From Bacteroidales bacterium (GTDB taxonomy: Bacteria > Bacteroidota > Bacteroidia > Bacteroidales > GCA-2748055), in assembly GCA_029931975.1 (NCBI GenBank), contig JAOZQY010000030.1, positions 1-44,018 of the forward strand: DNA of 44,018 nt, written 5' to 3'. Position numbers and translations under genes: made by a program. The notes below the pieces were generated by a model. The model was not told where the DNA came from. It did not search any database and was given only the letters and a program-made list of their open reading frames with translations. Shown one piece after another: positions 18,544 to 28,026 of the stretch (its first letter is position 1; each line of letters starts with the position of its first letter).

Positions 18544-20184
18544 ATGCGCACAAGCACAATGATTTCCCCGGTCCTTCTTATGATCTTATTTAGTTGCAAT
18601 GCACAGAAACAAAAGGCCGACCTGATTCTGACCAACGCAATAGTCTATACTGTTGATGAATCATTCAGTAAGGCGGAAGCCATTGCTATCAGGGACCATA
18701 AAATAATAGCCCTTGGAAGTTCCGAAGAAATCGCAAAAGGATATACAGCAGAAAAGGTTCACGATCTGCAGCGGGCCTTTGTTTACCCGGGATTGATTGA
18801 TGCACACTGTCATTTTTTCGGATACGGAATAAACCTGAATGCAGTAGATGTGGCAGGAACAAGTTCGGTGGAGGAGATTATTGAGATCTTAGAAGCATAC
18901 CAGGAAAAGAATCCCGGGGCCTGGATCACGGGAAGAGGCTGGGATCAGAACGACTGGAAGGTGCAGGAGTTCCCTGACAAAAGCATGCTGGATGCACATT
19001 TTCCCAATACTCCCATCCTGCTGAGGCGAATCGACGGACATGCCGCCTGGGCCAACTCCCTGGCACTGAAAACAGCCGATATCACAGCCAGCTCAAAAGT
19101 GAATGGTGGAACAGTCATGCTTACTGATGGTGAGCCAAATGGAATTTTGCTGGATAACGCCATCGAACTGGTGGCATCGAAAATTCCGGCTCCCACAAAG
19201 GCAGATATGATCCAGGCTCTTCAGCAGGCCCAGCTTAATTGTTTCAGCGTGGGACTGACCTCGGTGTATGATGCGGGCCTACCCCTTACCGTTGTACAAC
19301 TTATTGACTCCCTGCAGAGGGTCGGATCCCTGAAGATTCGCATGAATACATGGCTGTCTCCATCTGAAGAGAACTTCACACATTTCGTGGAAAAGGGGCC
19401 CTACCAGACCGACTATCTCTCTGTAAATACCATCAAACTTTTTACGGATGGTGCCCTGGGATCAAGAGGTGCCCGGATGATTGAGCCTTACTCTGATGAT
19501 CCCGGTAATCTTGGATTGTATGTCACCCCCCTCCCTGTTCTGGAAAAATATTGCAAACGAGCATACGCAAATAATTTTGCAGTGGCAACACACTGTATCG
19601 GTGACGCGGCCAACCGGGAAACCCTGAAGATATATGCGGCCATTCTGGGCGGTGAAAATGATCGTCGCTGGCGCATCGAGCATGCTCAGATCATCCATCC
19701 AGATGATTTTCATTATTTTGGCGATTTTGATATTATCCCCTCCGTGCAGACCACCCATGCCACTTCCGACATGTACTGGGCAGAAGACCGGGTGGGCAGT
19801 GAACGCATCAAGGGAGCCTATGCATACAAAAAGCTCCTGGAGCAAAATGGCTGGCTCCCCAATGGAAGCGATTTCCCGGTGGAAAAAATCAATCCCCTCT
19901 TTGGCTTTTATGCTGGAGTGGTCCGCAAGGACCAGACGGGTTTTCCCAAAGAAGGATTCCAGCCTGAAAATGCCATCAGCAGGGAACAGGCCATGCGTGC
20001 AATGACCATATGGGCAGCCCACTCAGGCTTTGAGGAGAATCTGAAAGGAAGCATCGAAGCGGGTAAACTGGCCGACCTTGTGATCACCAATACCGACCTG
20101 ATGACCGCACCTGAAGAAAAGCTCTTCGAAATCAAGATACAATCCACTTACTCCGGCGGAGAATTGGTATACGAAGCTGATTAG
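18544..20184 (+). CDS. Lipoprotein amidohydrolase (YtcJ/Amidohydro_3 family)
   Basis: A 546-residue metal-dependent hydrolase with a lipoprotein signal (MISPVLLMILFSC, lipid Cys at 18). The composite domain starts KADLILTNAIVYTVDESFSK. Metal and active-site points are IDAHCHFFGYG (HxH), GRGWDQNDW, RRIDGHAAWANS, LFTDGALGSRGA, ATHCIGDAANRETL, IEHAQIIHPDD and NGSDFPVEKINPL (Asp). The C-terminal GSIEAGKLADLVI strand closes the beta sandwich. Members act on amides or imides; the substrate is unknown here. The stop TAG interlocks by 4 bases with the stop of the barrel gene on the other strand. Confidence 0.9.
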   Translation: MRTSTMISPVLLMILFSCNAQKQKADLILTNAIVYTVDESFSKAEAIAIRDHKIIALGSSEEIAKGYTAEKVHDLQRAFVYPGLIDAHCHFFGYGINLNAVDVAGTSSVEEIIEILEAYQEKNPGAWITGRGWDQNDWKVQEFPDKSMLDAHFPNTPILLRRIDGHAAWANSLALKTADITASSKVNGGTVMLTDGEPNGILLDNAIELVASKIPAPTKADMIQALQQAQLNCFSVGLTSVYDAGLPLTVVQLIDSLQRVGSLKIRMNTWLSPSEENFTHFVEKGPYQTDYLSVNTIKLFTDGALGSRGARMIEPYSDDPGNLGLYVTPLPVLEKYCKRAYANNFAVATHCIGDAANRETLKIYAAILGGENDRRWRIEHAQIIHPDDFHYFGDFDIIPSVQTTHATSDMYWAEDRVGSERIKGAYAYKKLLEQNGWLPNGSDFPVEKINPLFGFYAGVVRKDQTGFPKEGFQPENAISREQAMRAMTIWAAHSGFEENLKGSIEAGKLADLVITNTDLMTAPEEKLFEIKIQSTYSGGELVYEAD

Positions 20185-20750
20185 CGTAGAACAAGATTAA
20201 TCCCCACGGCCACTATATCCCAGGATCGATCCGAAACAGGAAGGTTGTATTCCGCAAAAAGAAACATCATCTCGTTCACGTTATAACCCACATTAATTGG
20301 CACCCAGATCCTGGGATTCATCTCCAAGGCAAAACTCAAATCCGCATCGAGACCAATGGAAAGGCTAAGCTCGTAACGAGGTATGTAAGTAAAAAGTCCT
20401 GTCAGATCACACCCGAACCGATCCCATTTATGCAGTCCGCCAATCACTGAAAAATAACTCTTCCGGGCTTCATAAATCAGGTATTGCGCATCTATACCTA
20501 TGTAATCAGCGCCATTCATGAAATAGACATAACGGGCATTCAGGTCAAGGGAGTATAGCAGTCCATACCCTCCGTTAAATGCAAAAGAAGCTCCCCCTGC
20601 ATCGAAGAGTATCACATTCCTGTCCACATGCCAGGCAGGTGTTAAACCTACACTCCAGGCCCTTTCGGGAAGTGTTTTAGCAAAGTTAACAACCTGGGCA
20701 GAAAGAAGTATGGGCAGGGAGAACAGAAGCAGGAAAAGAAGTCTCTTCAT
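20181..20750 (-). CDS. Small outer-membrane beta-barrel-like protein
   Basis: A 189-residue exported protein (signal MKRLLFLLLFSLPILLSAQ) made of alternating amphipathic strands such as RAWSVGLTPAWHV, LLYSLDLNARYVYFM, YIGIDAQYLIYE and MFLFAEYNLPV, ending in a hydrophobic strand (IVAVGINLVLR). This suggests an 8-10-stranded outer-membrane barrel. The ATG at 20750 is preferred over the one at 20777, because the latter falls inside a promoter box (20777-20784). No specific family was recognised and the function is unknown. It lies downstream of TolC on the same strand but has its own promoter signal. Confidence 0.68.
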   Translation of the reverse strand: MKRLLFLLLFSLPILLSAQVVNFAKTLPERAWSVGLTPAWHVDRNVILFDAGGASFAFNGGYGLLYSLDLNARYVYFMNGADYIGIDAQYLIYEARKSYFSVIGGLHKWDRFGCDLTGLFTYIPRYELSLSIGLDADLSFALEMNPRIWVPINVGYNVNEMMFLFAEYNLPVSDRSWDIVAVGINLVLR

Positions 20751-20779
20751 TGTGACAGAATTGATTGTAGCTGTCACAA
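20750..20779 (-). repeat. Perfect 9-bp dyad over the start codon of the barrel gene
   Basis: TTGTGACAG (20750-20758) and CTGTCACAA (20771-20779) are exact inverted repeats separated by 12 bases. The dyad spans from the first base of the ATG to the edge of the -7 box, so it could be an operator. If transcription starts upstream, it could instead be an RNA hairpin at the start codon. Confidence 0.6.
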
Positions 20780-20803: not shown

Positions 20804-22162
20804 CTAAAACTGAATACCTCTACCCATGTAAAAGTCGAGGATCTTGGTATAAAAGATCAGTACATACTTGGCCGTAATCATATCGGAAGTGGACTCATAG
20901 AGCAGGTTACGTGCCTCCTGAAGTTCCAGTGAGGTGCCGGTGCCCACCAGGAAACGTTCCTCTGCAAAACGGAATGCCTCATCACTGTTGGCCACCGACT
21001 CCAGGGCTGAAACATAATTATCACTGGCTGCCACCGCCTCGGTATGATACTGCTGAAGCGTCTGTTCAAGAACCAGTATAGCATCGTCATACTGGTATTC
21101 CGCATCCTGCAGGTCCAGTTTGGCCTTATTGATATCGGTCTGCACCTGCCAGCGGTTGAAGATAGGTATGGAGAGCCCCATGGATAACTGCTTGTATTGA
21201 TTATTTCTAACCTGCTCATTGATAGGGTAATCAAGGCTTGGATTACTGGGATCAGGATCCAGGGGGTTAATGAGCCCGTCACTATAGTTTGAATAGACCA
21301 AGCCACTTGCATAAAGCTGGGGAGAACGTTGTCCCTTTTGCATGGCCAGATAGCGCTCCTTGCTCTCAACACCAAACTTCTTGCTTTTAATCTGTGGTAA
21401 ATTGAGCAGTGCATACTGAAATACAGAATCCAACTCAGGGATCAGCAAAGTGGAGGGATCGGGAAGTACAGGGGTTTCAATATCAAATCCCCTGTTATCA
21501 GTGGCATTCATCACATGCATCAGGGTCAGTTTTGCTATATCCCTGGCATTAACAGCCTGAGTAAATGCATATTTTGCTGCAGAGAGCTGAGCATTCACTT
21601 CCAGAAGTTTCCCCTTGGGTTCATTTCCAACCTCCACCAGTCTCTTCATCCGCTCCACCTGCTTCCGGGTTACTCCCACCTTAAGCTCTGCCACATCGGC
21701 CAGCTCCCGGTTCCTGAGCAAATCGAGATATCCGGTCACTACCTGGATGGTAATATCATCTACCATGGCCTTAAGGTCCTCCATACTCATCTGGTAATTG
21801 GCCTTATACATTTTCATGCTGTTTAATCCCTGCAGACCGTTAAACAGGGTCAGGTTACTCTGCATCCCCAGGTCGCCCTGACTTACATTTGCGTTTTTCC
21901 ACTCATAGGTTCCCCGGTCCAGCACACGACCGGTTCCCAGCTGGTGTTCAATCGAACCGTTCAGGTTGGGCAGTAGATTGAGCTTACTCTGACGATGGTC
22001 CTGACCCGTCGATTTCAAAACCAGCTCCTGACGCTTCACCTGCAGGTTATACTGAATGGCGTGATCGATACACTGATCGAGGCTCCAGAGCGAATCGGAC
22101 TGGCCCCATACCCCGGTCGCACTTACGAGCAGGACCATTGCTATTTGAAATATCTTCTTCAT
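20804..22162 (-). CDS. TolC-family outer-membrane efflux protein
   Basis: A 452-residue exported protein (signal MKKIFQIAMVLLVSATGVWGQ) that begins SDSLWSLDQCIDHAIQYNLQVKRQEL, the usual entry into the first TolC helix. It shows the duplicated helix-strand-helix architecture: DLGMQSNLTLFNGLQGLNS and QLSMGLSIPIFNRWQVQTDI are the two membrane-strand regions, and coiled-coil helices make up the rest. It should form a trimeric outer-membrane exit duct for substrates delivered by the HlyD-type adaptor, whose gene ends 9 bases upstream. Likely co-transcribed from the sigma-54 promoter in front of the adaptor gene. Confidence 0.93.
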   Translation of the reverse strand: MKKIFQIAMVLLVSATGVWGQSDSLWSLDQCIDHAIQYNLQVKRQELVLKSTGQDHRQSKLNLLPNLNGSIEHQLGTGRVLDRGTYEWKNANVSQGDLGMQSNLTLFNGLQGLNSMKMYKANYQMSMEDLKAMVDDITIQVVTGYLDLLRNRELADVAELKVGVTRKQVERMKRLVEVGNEPKGKLLEVNAQLSAAKYAFTQAVNARDIAKLTLMHVMNATDNRGFDIETPVLPDPSTLLIPELDSVFQYALLNLPQIKSKKFGVESKERYLAMQKGQRSPQLYASGLVYSNYSDGLINPLDPDPSNPSLDYPINEQVRNNQYKQLSMGLSIPIFNRWQVQTDINKAKLDLQDAEYQYDDAILVLEQTLQQYHTEAVAASDNYVSALESVANSDEAFRFAEERFLVGTGTSLELQEARNLLYESTSDMITAKYVLIFYTKILDFYMGRGIQF

Positions 22163-22171
22163 GGCGAAGGC

Positions 22172-23449
22172 TTAACGGTTATGTTTCAGAATCAGTTTAT
22201 CATGATCGGCGTAGTTCTGGTAGGAAGATACAATCACCTTCTCCCCTGGCTCCAGTCCCCCAAGCACCTCGTAATACCTGGGATTCTGACGGCCGATGCT
22301 GATATCACGTTTTACTGCAAATTCTTCAGACTCATCCAGCACAAAGACCCATTGTCCGCCGGTAGTTTGATAAAAACCACCTTTAGTCAGCAATACACCC
22401 TCTTTTGATTCACCCAGCTGCAACCTGATCCGGGAGGTCTGCCCGATCCGGATCTGTGCAGGCACCTCTTCGGTGAATACCATATCCACAGCAAAACGGC
22501 CGTTCTGCACCTCCGGATATACTTTAGTAATAACTCCCGTATAAGGTGTGCTGGCAAAATCACACTCACCTGTCAGCCCGCTTTGAATACGTGCAATATA
22601 ATGTTCATCGATATCGACCCTCAGTTTATAGGAATCCAGGATATTGATGGTCCCAACCCTGGTGCCATAGGTAACCACCTCACCAATCTCGGGATTCAGG
22701 GAGGCCAGCTCCCCATCAACAGACGCCTTGATATTCAGGTTCTCCATGCGGCGTTGGATAATCTCCATACTCGTCTCCATGCTCTCCACCGATTTCTCCA
22801 GCGAATTGATTTGAATAGATCTGTATAAGGAATCGTTCCTGAAATTCTCCAGGACCAGGTCGTAGAGCTCATTTGAAGATTCATAGGCCTCCCTGCTCTG
22901 GTCAAACTCCTCCCGGGAAATATGTCCCTGCTCCCTGAGCAACTTGTTGTTCTCATAGAGCCGTCGGGACTGGGTCACCGTAATATCAAGTTCGATGATC
23001 TGTTGCTTATAATTCAGCCGGGTCTGATCCATCTGAAGACGTGCCGTCCTTAGTTCATTGATGGCCCTGACAACCTGGGCCTCACTATTGGTAATTTCCA
23101 GTAAGAGGTTATCGTTGGCCAGCCGAAGAATCACATCCCCCTTCTTCACCATATTGCCCTCCTCAATCAGGATTTCCTGAACGCTTCCATTTTCCACTGC
23201 ATCCAGGTAAATGGTGGTGATAGGTTCCACGGTTCCCTGCACCGTAATATAATCCTGGAACACATCATGCTTCACCTCTTCAATGGTGATGCGTGAAACA
23301 TCCACATTGTATTTGGAACTCTTATCTCCAAAAATTATTACAGCCAGCACTGAAAGCATCAATGCTCCAAACAGGAGATACCAGATCATTTTACGTGATA
23401 AAAATCCTTTATTCTCAATTTTTCGGTCCATTCCGTCCATTTCAGTCAT
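22172..23449 (-). CDS. HlyD/RND-type periplasmic adaptor (membrane fusion) protein
   Basis: A 425-residue adaptor: short cytoplasmic N-terminus, one membrane helix (about 20-40, MIWYLLFGALMLSVLAVIIF), lipoyl-like half (AVENGSVQEILIEEGNMVKKGDVILRL), a long alpha-helical hairpin (about 110-240, including SREEFDQSREAYESS), second lipoyl half (LNIKASVDGELASLNPEIGEVV) and beta-barrel/proximal domains. It should bridge an inner-membrane transporter to TolC. The frame is open to 23596, but the ATG at 23449 is chosen because a sigma-54 promoter lies at 23478-23493, inside the longer version, and this start fits the family. Related adaptors usually neighbour MacB/FtsX-type ABC genes; none is present here. 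Confidence 0.92.
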   Translation of the reverse strand: MTEMDGMDRKIENKGFLSRKMIWYLLFGALMLSVLAVIIFGDKSSKYNVDVSRITIEEVKHDVFQDYITVQGTVEPITTIYLDAVENGSVQEILIEEGNMVKKGDVILRLANDNLLLEITNSEAQVVRAINELRTARLQMDQTRLNYKQQIIELDITVTQSRRLYENNKLLREQGHISREEFDQSREAYESSNELYDLVLENFRNDSLYRSIQINSLEKSVESMETSMEIIQRRMENLNIKASVDGELASLNPEIGEVVTYGTRVGTINILDSYKLRVDIDEHYIARIQSGLTGECDFASTPYTGVITKVYPEVQNGRFAVDMVFTEEVPAQIRIGQTSRIRLQLGESKEGVLLTKGGFYQTTGGQWVFVLDESEEFAVKRDISIGRQNPRYYEVLGGLEPGEKVIVSSYQNYADHDKLILKHNR

Positions 23450-23477
23450 TGTCAGTGTTTTTATTACGCGACAATAA

Positions 23478-23493
23478 TGCACTTTTTGTGCCA
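23478..23493 (-). promoter_or_regulatory. Sigma-54 (RpoN) promoter of the hlyD-tolC pair
   Basis: Read on the minus strand this is TGGCACAAAAAGTGCA, which matches the -24/-12 consensus TGGCAC-N5-TTGCA at all fixed positions but one, with GG and GC at the exact required spacing. Predicted transcription would start near 23467, leaving a leader of about 18 bases before the ATG at 23449. The divergent gene encodes an NtrC-type sigma-54 activator. Confidence 0.8.
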
Positions 23494-23539: not shown

Positions 23540-23590
23540 AAAATAGGAACAAAAAAAGTGTTCGATTTTGGGATCTATATGTTCGTTTTC
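23540..23590. promoter_or_regulatory. Candidate upstream activating sites for the sigma-54 regulator
   Basis: GTTCGATTTT (23560-23569) and GTTCGTTTTC (23581-23590) are near-identical direct repeats 21 bases apart, about two helical turns. AAAATAGGAAC (23540-23550) is an imperfect inverted copy. They lie roughly 75-125 bases upstream of the predicted sigma-54 start, the usual distance for activator binding. This is inference from spacing and similarity only. Confidence 0.35.
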
Positions 23591-23710
23591 GTACACTAAG
23601 CTGTGGTATTTTACTATCTTTATATATATATATAGCTGACTTTGTGTTATTTAAATAATAAGGCATCTTTTTTGAGAAACTATTAGCTTAAATGACCATA
23701 AAAATGAAAG

Positions 23711-25087
23711 ATGGAACAAAAAATTGGTAGAATTCTGGCAGTGGATGACAATGAAGACATCCTGTTTGCACTGAAGTTGTTGTTGCGCCCTCATGTTGAA
23801 CTTATCGAAACCCTGTCCGGTCCGGAACGGATTCCTGAAACAATGAAAAAACAGGATTGGGACGTCATCCTGCTTGATATGAATTTCACCAAAGATGCCA
23901 TTAGCGGACAGGAAGGCTTCGATGCCCTTTCGCAGATCCTGGAGATCGACGACCAGGCGGTAGTGGTTTTTATCACCGCCTATGGTGATGCTGAAAAAGC
24001 AGTAAAAGCCATCAAAATGGGGGCTACAGATTTTATCCTGAAACCGTGGCAAAACGAAAAAATACTGGCTACCATCAACTCGGCCATAAGCCTGCGACGT
24101 ACCAGGATCCAGGCTCAGAACCTGAAACTCAAGCAGCAGGAGATTAGCGCTGTTCTGGACCAGCCCTATACCGATTTCGTGGGCCAGTCGCCTGAAATGT
24201 ACGAAGTATTTAATACCATTAAAAAAGTGGCCGCCACAGATGCCAACGTGCTGATCCTGGGTGAAAACGGAACAGGAAAGGAACTTGTGGCCAGGGCACT
24301 CTACCGGAACTCGCTACGTAAAAATGAAGTCTTTATAAGTGTGGACCTGGGGTCTATTCCGGAGACGCTTTTTGAGAGTGAACTGTTCGGTCATGAGAAA
24401 GGTGCATTTACCGATGCCCATAAGATGAAACAGGGCCGCTTTGAAATTGCTTCCTCGGGCACTCTGTTCCTGGATGAGATCGGCAACCTGACCTACCCCC
24501 TGCAGTCAAAATTGCTTACCGTGCTTGAAAGGCGCGAAATCATGCGGGTGGGCTCCACCAAACCCATTCCCATTGACGTACGTATGATCTGTGCCACCAA
24601 TAACAATATTCACCAGGATGTGGCTGATGGGATTTTTCGTCAGGACCTGCTCTACCGCATTAATACCGTAGAGGTCCATCTGCCCGCACTCCGGGACCGC
24701 ACAGGTGATGTTCCCCTGCTGGCTGATCATTTCCTGAAAATTTACAGCAGAAAATACAGAAAACCCATACGAAATATCCAGTCCTCAGCGATCAAGAGGC
24801 TGAATCAGTATGCCTGGCCGGGCAATGTCAGAGAGTTGCAGCACTCCATAGAACGCGCAGTGATTATGTGCGAAGGAAGCAGCCTGGGGCCGGACGATTT
24901 CATACTTTCTTCCAGTGTAAAAAGCAGCGGGGGCCTGGAATTGGATTCCTATAATCTGGAAGATATCGAGAAAACAATCATTGAGAAGGTTCTGAAAACG
25001 AACCAGGGAAATGTGACCCAGGCAGCTACACAGCTTGGACTTACCCGGACCTCACTCTACAGAAGAATGGAAAAGCATGGCCTTTAA
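23711..25087 (+). CDS. Sigma-54-dependent response regulator (NtrC family)
   Basis: A 458-residue activator: receiver domain (~6-125; DDNED acidic pocket, phospho-Asp56 in DVILLDMNF, Lys111 in LKPW), AAA+ domain (~155-385; Walker A GENGTGKE at 184-191, ESELFGHEKGAFTDA, Walker B TLFLDEIG at 251-258, arginine-finger region RQDLLYRINT), and a Fis-type helix-turn-helix (QGNVTQAATQLGLTRTSLYR). The sigma-54-contacting loop reads GAFTDA instead of GAFTGA. The gene overlaps the kinase gene that follows by 11 bases and is divergent from the hlyD-tolC unit, whose sigma-54 promoter it probably activates. Confidence 0.95.
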   Translation: MEQKIGRILAVDDNEDILFALKLLLRPHVELIETLSGPERIPETMKKQDWDVILLDMNFTKDAISGQEGFDALSQILEIDDQAVVVFITAYGDAEKAVKAIKMGATDFILKPWQNEKILATINSAISLRRTRIQAQNLKLKQQEISAVLDQPYTDFVGQSPEMYEVFNTIKKVAATDANVLILGENGTGKELVARALYRNSLRKNEVFISVDLGSIPETLFESELFGHEKGAFTDAHKMKQGRFEIASSGTLFLDEIGNLTYPLQSKLLTVLERREIMRVGSTKPIPIDVRMICATNNNIHQDVADGIFRQDLLYRINTVEVHLPALRDRTGDVPLLADHFLKIYSRKYRKPIRNIQSSAIKRLNQYAWPGNVRELQHSIERAVIMCEGSSLGPDDFILSSSVKSSGGLELDSYNLEDIEKTIIEKVLKTNQGNVTQAATQLGLTRTSLYRRMEKHGL

Positions 25088-26429
25088 ACAGTTTCGCTTC
25101 AATATTGTACTGAGGGTACTGTTGCTTACCGCCACCTGCCTTGCCCTGTTCATTACACTGAACAGCACCTTCACCTTTACGCCCATCCTGGTAGTGGGAC
25201 TAATCATCTACCAGGTATGGTCGCTTATTAAATATGTGGACCGTACCAACAGGGAACTGGCTGGCTTCCTGGAGTCGATCCGCTATTCCGAATTCACCCG
25301 AACCTTCCAGATCAGCGACGGCGGAAGCTCCTTCGATGAACTCAATACGGCCTTCAACGATGTAATGAAAGATTTTCAGCAGGTGAGGTCAGAGAGAGAG
25401 GAGCATTTCCATTACCTGCAAAGCATAGTGCAGAGTATCGATGTCAGTATATTGGCCTACCAGCGCGACGGTACCGTTGAGATGATCAATCCGGCAGCCA
25501 AGAAACTGTTCCAGATAAACAGCCTGCGAAACATCAACTCCCTGCGATCGTTAAGTGAGAAACTGGCCACAACACTGCTGGCCCTCAATCCGGGCGAGAA
25601 CCAACTGGTGAAGGTACAGGATGACGAAGATATCCTTCAACTGGCCATATTTGCCACAGAGTTCAAGGTTAAGGACAAGGTGATCATTCTCAGTACCATC
25701 AAGAACATTCAAAATGTACTGGAGGAGCAGGAAACTGCAGCCTGGCAAAAACTGATCCGCGTACTAACACATGAGATCATGAACTCAATTGCCCCCATTT
25801 CATCGCTCTCCTCCACCGTGGAAAATATGGTCAAACCTTATACTTCTGGCCAGAAAGAGATGCAGGATGTGGATAAGGAAACGATCATTGAAATCCAGGG
25901 AGCGCTGCAAACTATCAACAAGCGAAGTACCGGTCTGATGAATTTTGTGGAGACCTATCGCAGCCTGACCAAAATTCCGGAGCCCAACTTCTCAATAGTG
26001 AAAATGGACGAAGTGATGAACAATGTTCATACTCTGATGAAAAAAGATGTGGAGCGAAAAAACATTTCCATATCCTGCTCTGTGGAGCCCAATACCATAG
26101 AAGTTCAAATCGATGAGCAGATGATCGAACAGGTATTGATCAACCTGATTAAAAACTCTGTACAGGCTCTGAAAGGAGTCCTGAATGCACAGATTGAGAT
26201 CAGGGGCTTCTATAACAAACGGGGAAGGCCCACCATCCAGGTAATAGATAACGGCCAGGGAATCCTGGTGGATGTAATTGATAAAATCTTCATTCCCTTC
26301 TTTACCACCAAGCAGAGCGGATCAGGGATCGGACTAAGTCTCTCCAAACAGATCATGAGGCTTCATGGAGGTACTATTACAGCACAATCGAAACCTAACG
26401 AAGAGACCATCTTCTCCATGACCTTCTGA
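25077..26429 (+). CDS. Membrane histidine kinase (NtrY/PAS type), partner of the sigma-54 regulator
   Basis: A 450-residue sensor with two closely spaced N-terminal membrane helices (about 9-28 and 33-52) and almost no periplasmic loop, suggesting it senses the membrane or cytoplasm. A linker (~55-110) and a PAS-like domain (~115-205, SIDVSILAYQRDGTVEMINP) follow. The kinase core has the phospho-His in VLTHEIMNSIAPISSL (His232), N box LINLIKNSVQAL, VIDNGQGI and GSGIGLSLSKQIMRLHGG. The start ATG at 25077 overlaps the regulator's last codons (ATGGCCTTTAA), a coupled arrangement. The longer upstream start would lie deep inside the regulator gene. Confidence 0.93.
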   Translation: MAFKQFRFNIVLRVLLLTATCLALFITLNSTFTFTPILVVGLIIYQVWSLIKYVDRTNRELAGFLESIRYSEFTRTFQISDGGSSFDELNTAFNDVMKDFQQVRSEREEHFHYLQSIVQSIDVSILAYQRDGTVEMINPAAKKLFQINSLRNINSLRSLSEKLATTLLALNPGENQLVKVQDDEDILQLAIFATEFKVKDKVIILSTIKNIQNVLEEQETAAWQKLIRVLTHEIMNSIAPISSLSSTVENMVKPYTSGQKEMQDVDKETIIEIQGALQTINKRSTGLMNFVETYRSLTKIPEPNFSIVKMDEVMNNVHTLMKKDVERKNISISCSVEPNTIEVQIDEQMIEQVLINLIKNSVQALKGVLNAQIEIRGFYNKRGRPTIQVIDNGQGILVDVIDKIFIPFFTTKQSGSGIGLSLSKQIMRLHGGTITAQSKPNEETIFSMTF

Positions 26430-26505: not shown

Positions 26506-28026
26506 ATGATGAAGATTAAACTAACTCTTGCCTTTGTCTCCCTGTACACCCTGCTGAGCAGCCAGCTAAACGCCCAGTCGAAGACCTGGCTGAACGTGGA
26601 AACCGGTCCGCAATGGAGCCTGATAAAAGTGACTGATCCCAATGGATACTTTGAGCAGGCCAATGTGGGTTCTTACATGGCTGGAGTTACAGTGGGCCAG
26701 GAAGTTTTGCCCAATCTCGTACTTAGCACAGGGCTTCTGTACATGCCTCATAATGACGGGATTAATATGATCGATGACCGCCCACACCAATCCAGCTGGA
26801 AAGCCTCCAGCTCGTTTATGATACCGATCCGGGCCGAATACATCATCCAGCCCACCGAATACCCGCTATGTTTCAGCCCCAGGATTGGATATCTCTTCAA
26901 TATGGATTCACAACCCGATGAACTTTACACAGCAAACAGCAATATCTCCTCCCCCGATGGCGAGGCGCTCTCCTACCAGCTTGAGCAGGTTTTTGATCAA
27001 GCCTCTACCCATCTTCTGGAATTGGGTATGGGGGCTAATTTCAGGTTCCCCAACTCCTGGCAAATCTCCTTGAATATTTCCTATATGTCTGCTCCATTCG
27101 ACTCAGAATCAACGCGCCTCACTCTGGAGTATACTGATTCCCAGGGAAATCTCACCTCCACAGCTTATACTTCCAAAGGCAATGCCTTCTATTCCAACCT
27201 GACTCTTAATATTCCAATCAGCAATATATGGCAAAACAAAAACTACAGGATTCGTAGACGTATCGAAAATTCGGTTTACAAGGGGAAAGCCTTAGAAAAG
27301 AGAGGACAGGTTTACCTGGGAGCTGAGATTGGCTCCTTATGGAGATTTTTTTCCAGCAATAATCCGGCCATTGGGCCTCGTCCTTTGGAGGGGCGGGGAC
27401 TTTTCCGCTATGCCAACCTGCATACCGGAATCTATGCAGGCTACATGCTCAGCAATGAATTAGGCATCGATATTGGGGCCATCTATCAGCGATCCAGCAC
27501 ATTCTATGCGGTAATGTACGACCATGAAGTAGATTTTGTAGTCAAAGAGTCGGCACCTCTTTACCTGGAGATCCCTGTAAGACTCAGGTATTTTTACAAT
27601 GTATACAAGAATAAGGTTCATGTGGCCATCTATGGAGGAATGTCTCTGCTTACACATTTTTCCTCAGGAATTTATAAGCAGGGCAGTGGTGATTTTTCTT
27701 ACCTCCCCCCTTGGGGTGCCACACCAGTACCGGCAAGCACAAGTTACGCGGCCTCCGGTGTAAACAAATTTGCACCGGTAATACGCCTGGGGACAGGCCT
27801 TGAATATACACTCCCCCTGGAGTTTCCATTGATTGCTACCCTGTATTTGAACTATATGCATGGATTAATGGATACAGGTCAAATCGAGATTACCGGAAGC
27901 ATTCCTGAAACACCGGCAATTACCACCATCGCTTACAGGGGAAGTGGATGGAGCCTGGATCTGGGTGTGAAAATTCCCTTCCGGTTTGGAGGAGGAAAGT
28001 GCGGAGAACTACCTGCAAGAGAATAG
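26506..28026 (+). CDS. Outer-membrane protein built of two related beta-barrel halves
   Basis: A 506-residue exported protein (signal MMKIKLTLAFVSLYTLLSSQLNAQ). Residues ~27-245 and ~268-495 look like two tandem copies of one porin-like module: each opens with a matching strand (WLNVETGPQWSLIK versus VYLGAEIGSLWRFF), continues with a GSYMAGVTVGQEVLPNLVLSTG or LHTGIYAGYMLSNELGIDIG strand pair, and has an IRAEYIIQPTE or VRLRYFYNVYK strand later. A short basic linker (NYRIRRRIENSVYKG) joins them. The C-terminus continues GGGKCGELPARE past the last strand, which is atypical. Function is unknown. It lies 76 bases after the kinase gene. Confidence 0.75.
   Translation: MMKIKLTLAFVSLYTLLSSQLNAQSKTWLNVETGPQWSLIKVTDPNGYFEQANVGSYMAGVTVGQEVLPNLVLSTGLLYMPHNDGINMIDDRPHQSSWKASSSFMIPIRAEYIIQPTEYPLCFSPRIGYLFNMDSQPDELYTANSNISSPDGEALSYQLEQVFDQASTHLLELGMGANFRFPNSWQISLNISYMSAPFDSESTRLTLEYTDSQGNLTSTAYTSKGNAFYSNLTLNIPISNIWQNKNYRIRRRIENSVYKGKALEKRGQVYLGAEIGSLWRFFSSNNPAIGPRPLEGRGLFRYANLHTGIYAGYMLSNELGIDIGAIYQRSSTFYAVMYDHEVDFVVKESAPLYLEIPVRLRYFYNVYKNKVHVAIYGGMSLLTHFSSGIYKQGSGDFSYLPPWGATPVPASTSYAASGVNKFAPVIRLGTGLEYTLPLEFPLIATLYLNYMHGLMDTGQIEITGSIPETPAITTIAYRGSGWSLDLGVKIPFRFGGGKCGELPARE

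Follow-up and report, generated by a model that had tools for sequence, protein, structure and literature searches.

The window analyzed here is a 44,018-nucleotide stretch of DNA from a Bacteroidales bacterium (contig JAOZQY010000030.1 of assembly GCA_029931975.1). It contains an hlyD-tolC gene pair, a divergent gene pair predicted to encode a two-component system and, between them, an intergenic region with candidate control elements, as listed below.

20181–20777, minus strand: gene of a small barrel-like protein (reading by eye; no Pfam match)
20804–22162, minus strand: gene of a TolC-like outer-membrane channel, 9 bp after hlyD (Pfam OEP)
22172–23440, minus strand: hlyD, gene of an HlyD/MacA-like periplasmic adaptor, with its start at 23440 or 23431 (Pfam HlyD_3; TIGR01730; start codon conservation)
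23467, minus strand: predicted start of transcription (+1), 12 bases beyond the −12 C (from spacing)
23478–23493, minus strand: −24/−12 (sigma-54) promoter, TGGCACAAAAAGTGCA (sequence; conservation before orthologous hlyD)
23559–23574, no strand: candidate operator site 2, a degraded copy with the good half CGAACA (direct repeat; conserved block)
23580–23595, no strand: candidate operator site 1, palindrome TGTNCG-N4-CGNACA (conserved; centre about 120 bp upstream of the predicted +1)
23615–23622, plus strand: candidate −7 box (TAnnTTTG-like) of the regulator gene, TATCTTTA (conserved block; 19 bp from operator site 1)
23711–25087, plus strand: gene of an NtrC-type response regulator, the proposed activator (receiver, AAA+ with GAFTDA loop, Fis-type HTH)
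25077–26429, plus strand: gene of a sensor histidine kinase (Pfam HATPase_c, for which the frame was given from 25083; hydropathy)

The adaptor exceeded the cut-off of TIGR01730 (139.9 bits against 94.9) and the channel that of PF02321 (162.1 bits against 22). Among 22 relative loci, 7 encode a homologue of the small barrel-like protein after tolC; several of the 22 end before that point. On the opposite side of the window locus, a gene for a barrel-type outer-membrane protein (26506–28026) comes after the kinase gene, and homologues occupy the same place in L036, L038, L040, L041, L042 and L045. Three more distant relatives carry a frame of 97 to 99 amino acids between hlyD (or an ATPase gene) and tolC (L044, 10022–10315; L046, 2133–2426; L047, 9282–9581), which is missing from the window operon.

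The initial annotation had assigned to the hlyD-tolC pair a near-perfect sigma-54 promoter. The sequence confirmed that TGGCACAAAAAGTGCA, read on the minus strand from 23493 to 23478, has the exact GG-N10-GC spacing (TGGCAC-N5-TTGCW context) and matches the consensus TGGCACNNNNNTTGCW at 15 of 16 positions; it matches the fuller −24/−12 consensus, TGGCACGNNNNTTGCW, at 14 of 16. Comparable matches are no more frequent in the window than in shuffled sequence, with 2 found against 1.67 expected when at most one mismatch was permitted and 22 against 22.19 when two were permitted. The looser pattern TGGCA-N7-TGCW occurs 143 times genome-wide (63 forward and 80 reverse). By count alone, the bare motif is at chance level, and it is position and conservation, rather than the number of motifs, that raise the hlyD element above chance.

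Conservation was examined in relatives of the adaptor gene. Of 24 loci, 17 (L032 to L048; 56 to 94 % identity; titled Bacteroidota, Bacteroidales, Bacteroidia or Bacteroides MAGs) had upstream sequence and showed hlyD followed by tolC or a contig end before tolC, giving 18 loci together with the window; L053 (no upstream sequence), L054 (a C-terminal piece) and L055 (21 % identity) were left out. TTGGCA-N7-TG precedes hlyD in 17 of the 18 loci, and the remaining one, L039, has the GG-N10-GC variant TGGCATAATAGTGGCA. The −12 GC is changed in five loci (GT in L041 and L043, GG in L044, GA in L047 and L048), all of which keep GG and the −12 G. The initial annotation expected the GG and GC positions to persist in relatives with the same gene order; this held for GG and the −12 G, but the GC was lost in L041, whose hlyD is 81 % identical. 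An alignment of 13 sequences showed conservation of the promoter, of two blocks upstream of it and of a box ahead of the regulator gene, while much else was variable. In the more remote loci L049 to L052 (42 to 43 % identity), tolC stands first in the gene order and is itself preceded, as read by eye, by TGGCAC-N5-TTGG in L049, L051 and L052 and by TGGCACACCCTTGGCA, with GG-N10-GC spacing, in L050. One could still argue from the shuffled-sequence frequencies that the −24/−12 match arose by chance and that an ordinary promoter drives hlyD. Retention of the element, or its variant, in every compared locus while the spacer diverges, as well as the 75 composite sites found against none with a control pattern (see below), makes this explanation barely credible. 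A sigma-54 promoter reading into hlyD-tolC, opposite the NtrC-type regulator gene, is thus well supported by the comparative data.

In-frame ATG codons of hlyD corresponding to 23440 and 23431 are present in all 18 loci, whereas an ATG at 23449 is present in 10, so that one of the first two is most likely the start. Matches to full-length orthologues set in at residue 1 when the frame is counted from 23431. The leader from the predicted +1 would measure 27 or 36 bases, respectively. The initial annotation had the +1 about 18 bases before the ATG at 23449, which is arithmetically right, but 23449 is probably not the start. The longer frame that it described, open to a GTG at 23596, does exist.

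The initial annotation had also recognized in the divergent gene the matching kind of activator, with its kinase behind it. The receiver, AAA+ and Fis-type domains of the regulator all exceeded their Pfam cut-offs (PF00072, PF00158 and PF02954), but its loop reads GAFTDA, and the strict GAFTGA hexapeptide is absent. This substitution was found in all 19 regulators read (the window and 18 loci; L049 also has a regulator homologue, which is outside this set), and we therefore describe the protein as one that works like an NtrC-type activator with a loop variant. The kinase has a hydrophobic N-terminus that, by hydropathy, leaves no room for a sizeable periplasmic loop, an arrangement typical of membrane-stress sensing kinases. 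RpoN itself is present in the genome as a 483-amino-acid frame (PF04552, 178.5 bits). The genome contains eight PF00158 matches including the window regulator, four of them weak. The loops of its other activators read GAFTGA in C220 and C199 and GAFTDA in C147. On C147 (G000:C147:13818–18811; L113, 3819–8812), the second GAFTDA activator and kinase-like frames lie divergent to a MacB/FtsX permease gene, and no window-type operator was found within 230 bp of that permease gene.

Closer inspection of the intergenic region revealed candidate binding sites for the regulator. Operator site 1 (TGTTCGTTTTCGTACA, 23580–23595) is an imperfect palindrome, and its counterpart in L035 has the perfect form TGTACGAATTCGTACA. 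Site 2 repeats it directly at a spacing of 21 bp, which probably places both sites on the same face of the helix. The sites lie about 120 and 100 bp upstream of the predicted +1; activators of sigma-54 promoters usually bind roughly 80 to 150 bp upstream. In the 4.76-Mb genome, TGTNCG-N4-CGNACA occurs in only two places, and the reversed control pattern in none. The operator and the wider regulon to which it leads are absent from the initial annotation and are the larger finding.

The same region carries the conserved box TATCTTTA, which resembles the −7 consensus TAnnTTTG given in the accessible part of PMC9723704 and is likely the primary-sigma −7 box of the regulator gene. Its distance of 19 bp from operator site 1 suggests that the regulator gene is autoregulated. 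This closeness would also fit palindromes that repress the regulator gene while the hlyD promoter is activated in some other manner. Since unlinked ATPase, permease and repeat-protein genes are also preceded by this operator, with its distance to TTGGCA hardly varying, we regard repression as the sole role of the palindromes as highly improbable, though autorepression may occur in addition to activation.

Alternatively, the sigma-54 promoter could be real and the palindromes bound by one of the genome's other activators, given the eight PF00158 matches and the location of the C220 and C147 activators near permease genes. The palindrome, however, lies in the intergenic region shared with the window regulator gene, in relatives as in the window. 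In addition, the recognition helix LTRTSLYRRMEK is confined to the window regulator among the genome's activators with an HTH read, the helices of C220, C147 and C199 being unlike it. The helix is identical in 16 of the 19 regulators (the window and 15 Bacteroidota loci of like gene order) and altered in L050, L051 and L052, whose upstream repeats differ too: inspection by eye revealed no window-type palindrome in these three upstream regions, but GTGT...ACAC repeats instead. Binding by another activator is accordingly an improbable reading of these data, and the window regulator is the proposed occupant of the palindromes.

Outside the window, the second palindrome of the genome (C296:26880–26895) starts 143 bp upstream of the ATG that opens the gene of a 227-amino-acid ABC ATPase; after it come a second half site and TTGGCACATCTATTGT, containing a −24 box. 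No permease, adaptor or channel homologue was detected by BLAST in 17 kb around this site. A strict search for the composite of palindrome and promoter returned only the hlyD and C296 sites in this genome, and the list of its regulon members is a minimum. A permease orthologue on C137 (812 amino acids, 73 % identical to the G004 query, with domains of the MacB core and FtsX types) is preceded by two sites 21 bp apart, each deviating in one outer palindrome letter, and then by TTTGGCACTGCTATTGAG. The permease gene on C111 has two sites 20 bp apart, one letter off, with GTGGCACAATTTCTGAG; that on C220 has one near-palindrome with GTGGCACGAAAACTGTG and another activator gene nearby; and that on C100 has a near-palindrome with only a weak TGGTAAGGCCTTTGT. 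No such operator was found within 230 bp of the two C54 permease genes. One near-palindrome and TTTGGCACGGAATATGAT also precede a gene on C121 that encodes a protein with ExWMTxPF repeats (WM protein). MacB/FtsX-type permease genes are expanded in this genome (11 matches at E values below 1e-15), and no window-type ATPase or adaptor homologue was found around the seven permeases on C137, C111, C220, C147, C54 and C100.

We then considered the composite (palindrome, N60 to N90, TTGGCA) in 28 genomes of the family, the own genome included. It was found at 75 sites in 25 genomes, whereas the reversed control pattern yielded none. Judged by the downstream frames, 68 of the 75 sites precede hlyD (18), the ATPase gene (18), a MacB/FtsX permease gene (8) or a gene of a WM protein (24, of which 22 were assigned by BLAST and 2 by motif). 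The seven others comprise two in L077, where two overlapping TTGGCA were paired with one palindrome, one each in L146, L147 and L157, a second site in L121 before a cut-off frame resembling the WM family, and one in L078 that points toward the regulator gene and lacks the −12 TG; G012, one of the 25 genomes, has only sites outside the four classes. Distances were nearly fixed within each class (98 bp for the ATPase, 97 to 98 bp for the permease, 107 to 109 bp for hlyD and 108 to 111 bp for the WM genes). In ungapped alignments, information was concentrated in the two elements: 1.67 bits for the palindrome, 1.54 for the promoter and 0.73 for the spacer at hlyD (16 of 18 sites, 107 bp); 1.52 for the operator, 1.70 for the promoter and 0.86 for the spacer at the ATPase gene (17 sites); and 1.50, 1.38 and 0.80, respectively, at the WM genes (15 of the 22 BLAST-class sites, 110 bp). 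The −12 C is not conserved in the ATPase, permease and most WM promoters. The 28 genomes and the hlyD-relative loci probably overlap (e.g., L037 and G013:C389), and the family and locus counts are therefore not independent.

The WM proteins were represented by 29 distinct frames collected from the loci under the requirement of at least two [EDQ]xWM motifs, which renders W and M invariant by construction. Of 113 repeats, 111 have the preceding E, 80 the following P and 73 the following F. Each protein has 2 to 8 repeats, most commonly spaced by 19, 18 or 16 residues, and the N-termini, read by eye, look like signal peptides. The WM protein of the own genome had no Pfam or NCBIfam match at an E value of 0.001 and no PDB match at an E value of 1, and two further members had no Pfam match over the cut-off. 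Two WM genes share a contig in L067, L094 and L096, and G003:C683 carries two composite sites about 620 bp apart. Among 295 genomes of the class, a WM protein was found in four, the own genome and three with weak matches (E value of ~5e-4), and we therefore treat the WM protein as limited to the bacterial family of the own genome. A more far-reaching idea is that WM proteins are the very reason for the regulon: as secreted precursors whose 16- to 19-residue repeats would be periplasmic peptides exported by the HlyD-TolC/FtsX pump, or as a kinase ligand reporting pump performance, they would make it a chromosome-dispersed sigma-54 export and sensing loop with a new protein family. We put this forward as speculation that is rather unlikely to be correct.

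A survey was also made at the level of the order, and the reading of a single regulon throughout the order was rejected. The composite matched in 75 of 393 genomes (6 of them from the own family) and the reversed pattern in 9 of 393, as read by eye from the table. Of 24 order-level sites inspected (L162 to L185, a part of all), 6 stand before pump genes and 11 before genes of small exported-looking proteins, the other 7 before neither. In L180 and L183 (G365 and G274), the small exported-looking proteins carry a different, EEEYIDDIPFDT-like repeat that may be distantly related to the WM repeat; no Pfam match exceeded the cut-off in the initial 110 residues of a protein of this type. Those following composite sites in L171, L172, L179 and L184, from other families of the order, recall TonB C-terminal domains as an impression only, and the first 110 residues of the L171 protein likewise had no Pfam match over the cut-off.

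The shared operator-promoter arrangement before the hlyD, ATPase, permease and WM genes suggested that the HlyD-TolC pair is probably part of a MacAB-TolC-like pump whose genes are scattered and belong to a common sigma-54 regulon under the adjacent NtrC-type regulator. Gene order in relatives links the dispersed ATPase to the adaptor. A homologue of the C296-type ATPase is encoded between hlyD and tolC in L044 (81 % identity) and L046 (80 %) and after hlyD in L051 and L052 (70 % each). Large permease-like frames, recognized by eye, follow hlyD in L049 and L050, and no examined relative carries a C137-type permease gene in the hlyD operon. From co-regulation together with these gene orders, we infer that the ATPase and permease probably work with the adaptor and channel as a single machine.

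A different reading accepts the promoter and the regulon but takes the co-regulated set for a general envelope-stress response, with HlyD-TolC using another inner-membrane partner. With 11 MacB/FtsX-type permease matches, the genome offers other partners; at the order level, some sites stand before genes of other small exported-looking proteins; and sigma-54 in Flavobacterium psychrophilum covers chaperones and exported proteins, as far as the accessible part of PMC9723704 goes. These points have to be set against the ATPase homologue encoded between hlyD and tolC or after hlyD in four relatives and against the equal shares of hlyD and the ATPase gene among the composite sites. We consider a separate partner unlikely, while allowing it an appreciable chance.

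Collectively, we favor a model in which two genes of a tripartite ABC exporter lie in the window along with their control region. In this model, the membrane kinase (25077–26429) would phosphorylate the NtrC-type regulator (23711–25087) in response to a signal that may be envelope stress or a peptide. Regulator dimers would bind the palindrome at 23580–23595 and the weaker site at 23559–23574 and assemble into an AAA+ ring, which upon DNA looping would remodel the sigma-54 polymerase at 23493–23478. Transcription of hlyD-tolC, probably together with the small barrel gene, would then start at about 23467. Matching two-part control regions precede the genes of the ABC ATPase (C296), the MacB/FtsX permeases (C137 and C111) and the WM protein (C121), so that a single signal could jointly induce the scattered genes of adaptor, channel, motor, permease and repeat protein; the same switch before all of them makes them readable as one system. 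The chance-level frequency of the bare motif, the variable −12 C, the GAFTDA loop and the permease and WM operators of the own genome that are one palindrome letter off speak against the model. So do the strict search with its two own-genome sites, the C54 and C147 permease genes that show no such site within 230 bp, the seven family sites outside the four classes and the absence of a C137-type permease gene from the hlyD operon of the examined relatives. On balance, we hold the model as a whole to be likely.

If it is correct, the operator and sigma-54 promoter work like a shared address, bringing together pump genes that neighborhood alone would not join in this genome, and this address names an apparently secreted repeat family, without Pfam, NCBIfam or PDB match in our scans, as a co-regulated partner. 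The cargo and the signal of orphan exporters would thereby become directly testable. The data also suggest that sigma-54 promoters of Bacteroidota respond to activators with a GAFTDA loop. The GAFTGA-requiring survey of PMC12316311 omits this class; in its accessible part, it calls GAFTGA invariant and keeps only activators containing it.

Several known systems resemble the proposed exporter in part. The darobactin exporter DarBCD (NF038008, NF038010 and NF038007) came closest in NCBIfam for the adaptor and the ATPase, whose top matches were DarC and DarD, while the permease matched ADOP first and DarB second; all scores fell below the curated cut-offs (DarB, 123.9 of 700 bits; DarC, 186.8 of 450; DarD, 274.5 of 375), and, unlike in DarBCD, the pump genes are scattered here. 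The macrolide/peptide efflux pump MacAB-TolC is similar in the MacA-like adaptor, the permease with MacB-type periplasmic core and FtsX domain, and the TolC-type channel. It differs in that the ATPase and permease are here encoded by separate genes on separate contigs, with no ATPase-permease fusion and scores of 223.7 and 49.8 bits against the MacB equivalog (PRK10535) cut-off of 966, and in the sigma-54 promoter with its own operator. In ZraSR-type envelope-stress systems, too, the sigma-54 activator belongs to a two-component pair and its targets include a small exported protein; their regulon is not known to contain a pump, and the window pair missed the NCBIfam cut-offs for ZraR and ZraS (324.1 of 760 and 97.5 of 479 bits). 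In a search of largely open-access literature by terms other than the repeat motif, we found no report of the operator, the scattered regulon or the WM protein. In F. psychrophilum, −24/−12 promoters, one of them tested by mutation, serve chaperones, motility and exported proteins (PMC9723704, accessible part). That regulon resembles the present one in placing such promoters ahead of genes for envelope stress and for exported proteins of unknown function, and Table 2A of that paper, which presents selected promoters, names chaperones, motility and others but no HlyD, TolC or ABC pump. Finally, sigma-54 promoters are statistically enriched before COG0577 FtsX-type permease genes in Bacteroidia, which PMC12316311 claims as first evidence of its kind; its main text does not mention HlyD or TolC, and its accessible part names neither an activator nor an operator for these permeases, both of which are proposed here. 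Relative to this known link between sigma-54 and FtsX, as far as it is described there, the probable novelty lies in one operator-promoter module placed before both the genes of a probable tripartite exporter and those of a family of repeat proteins.
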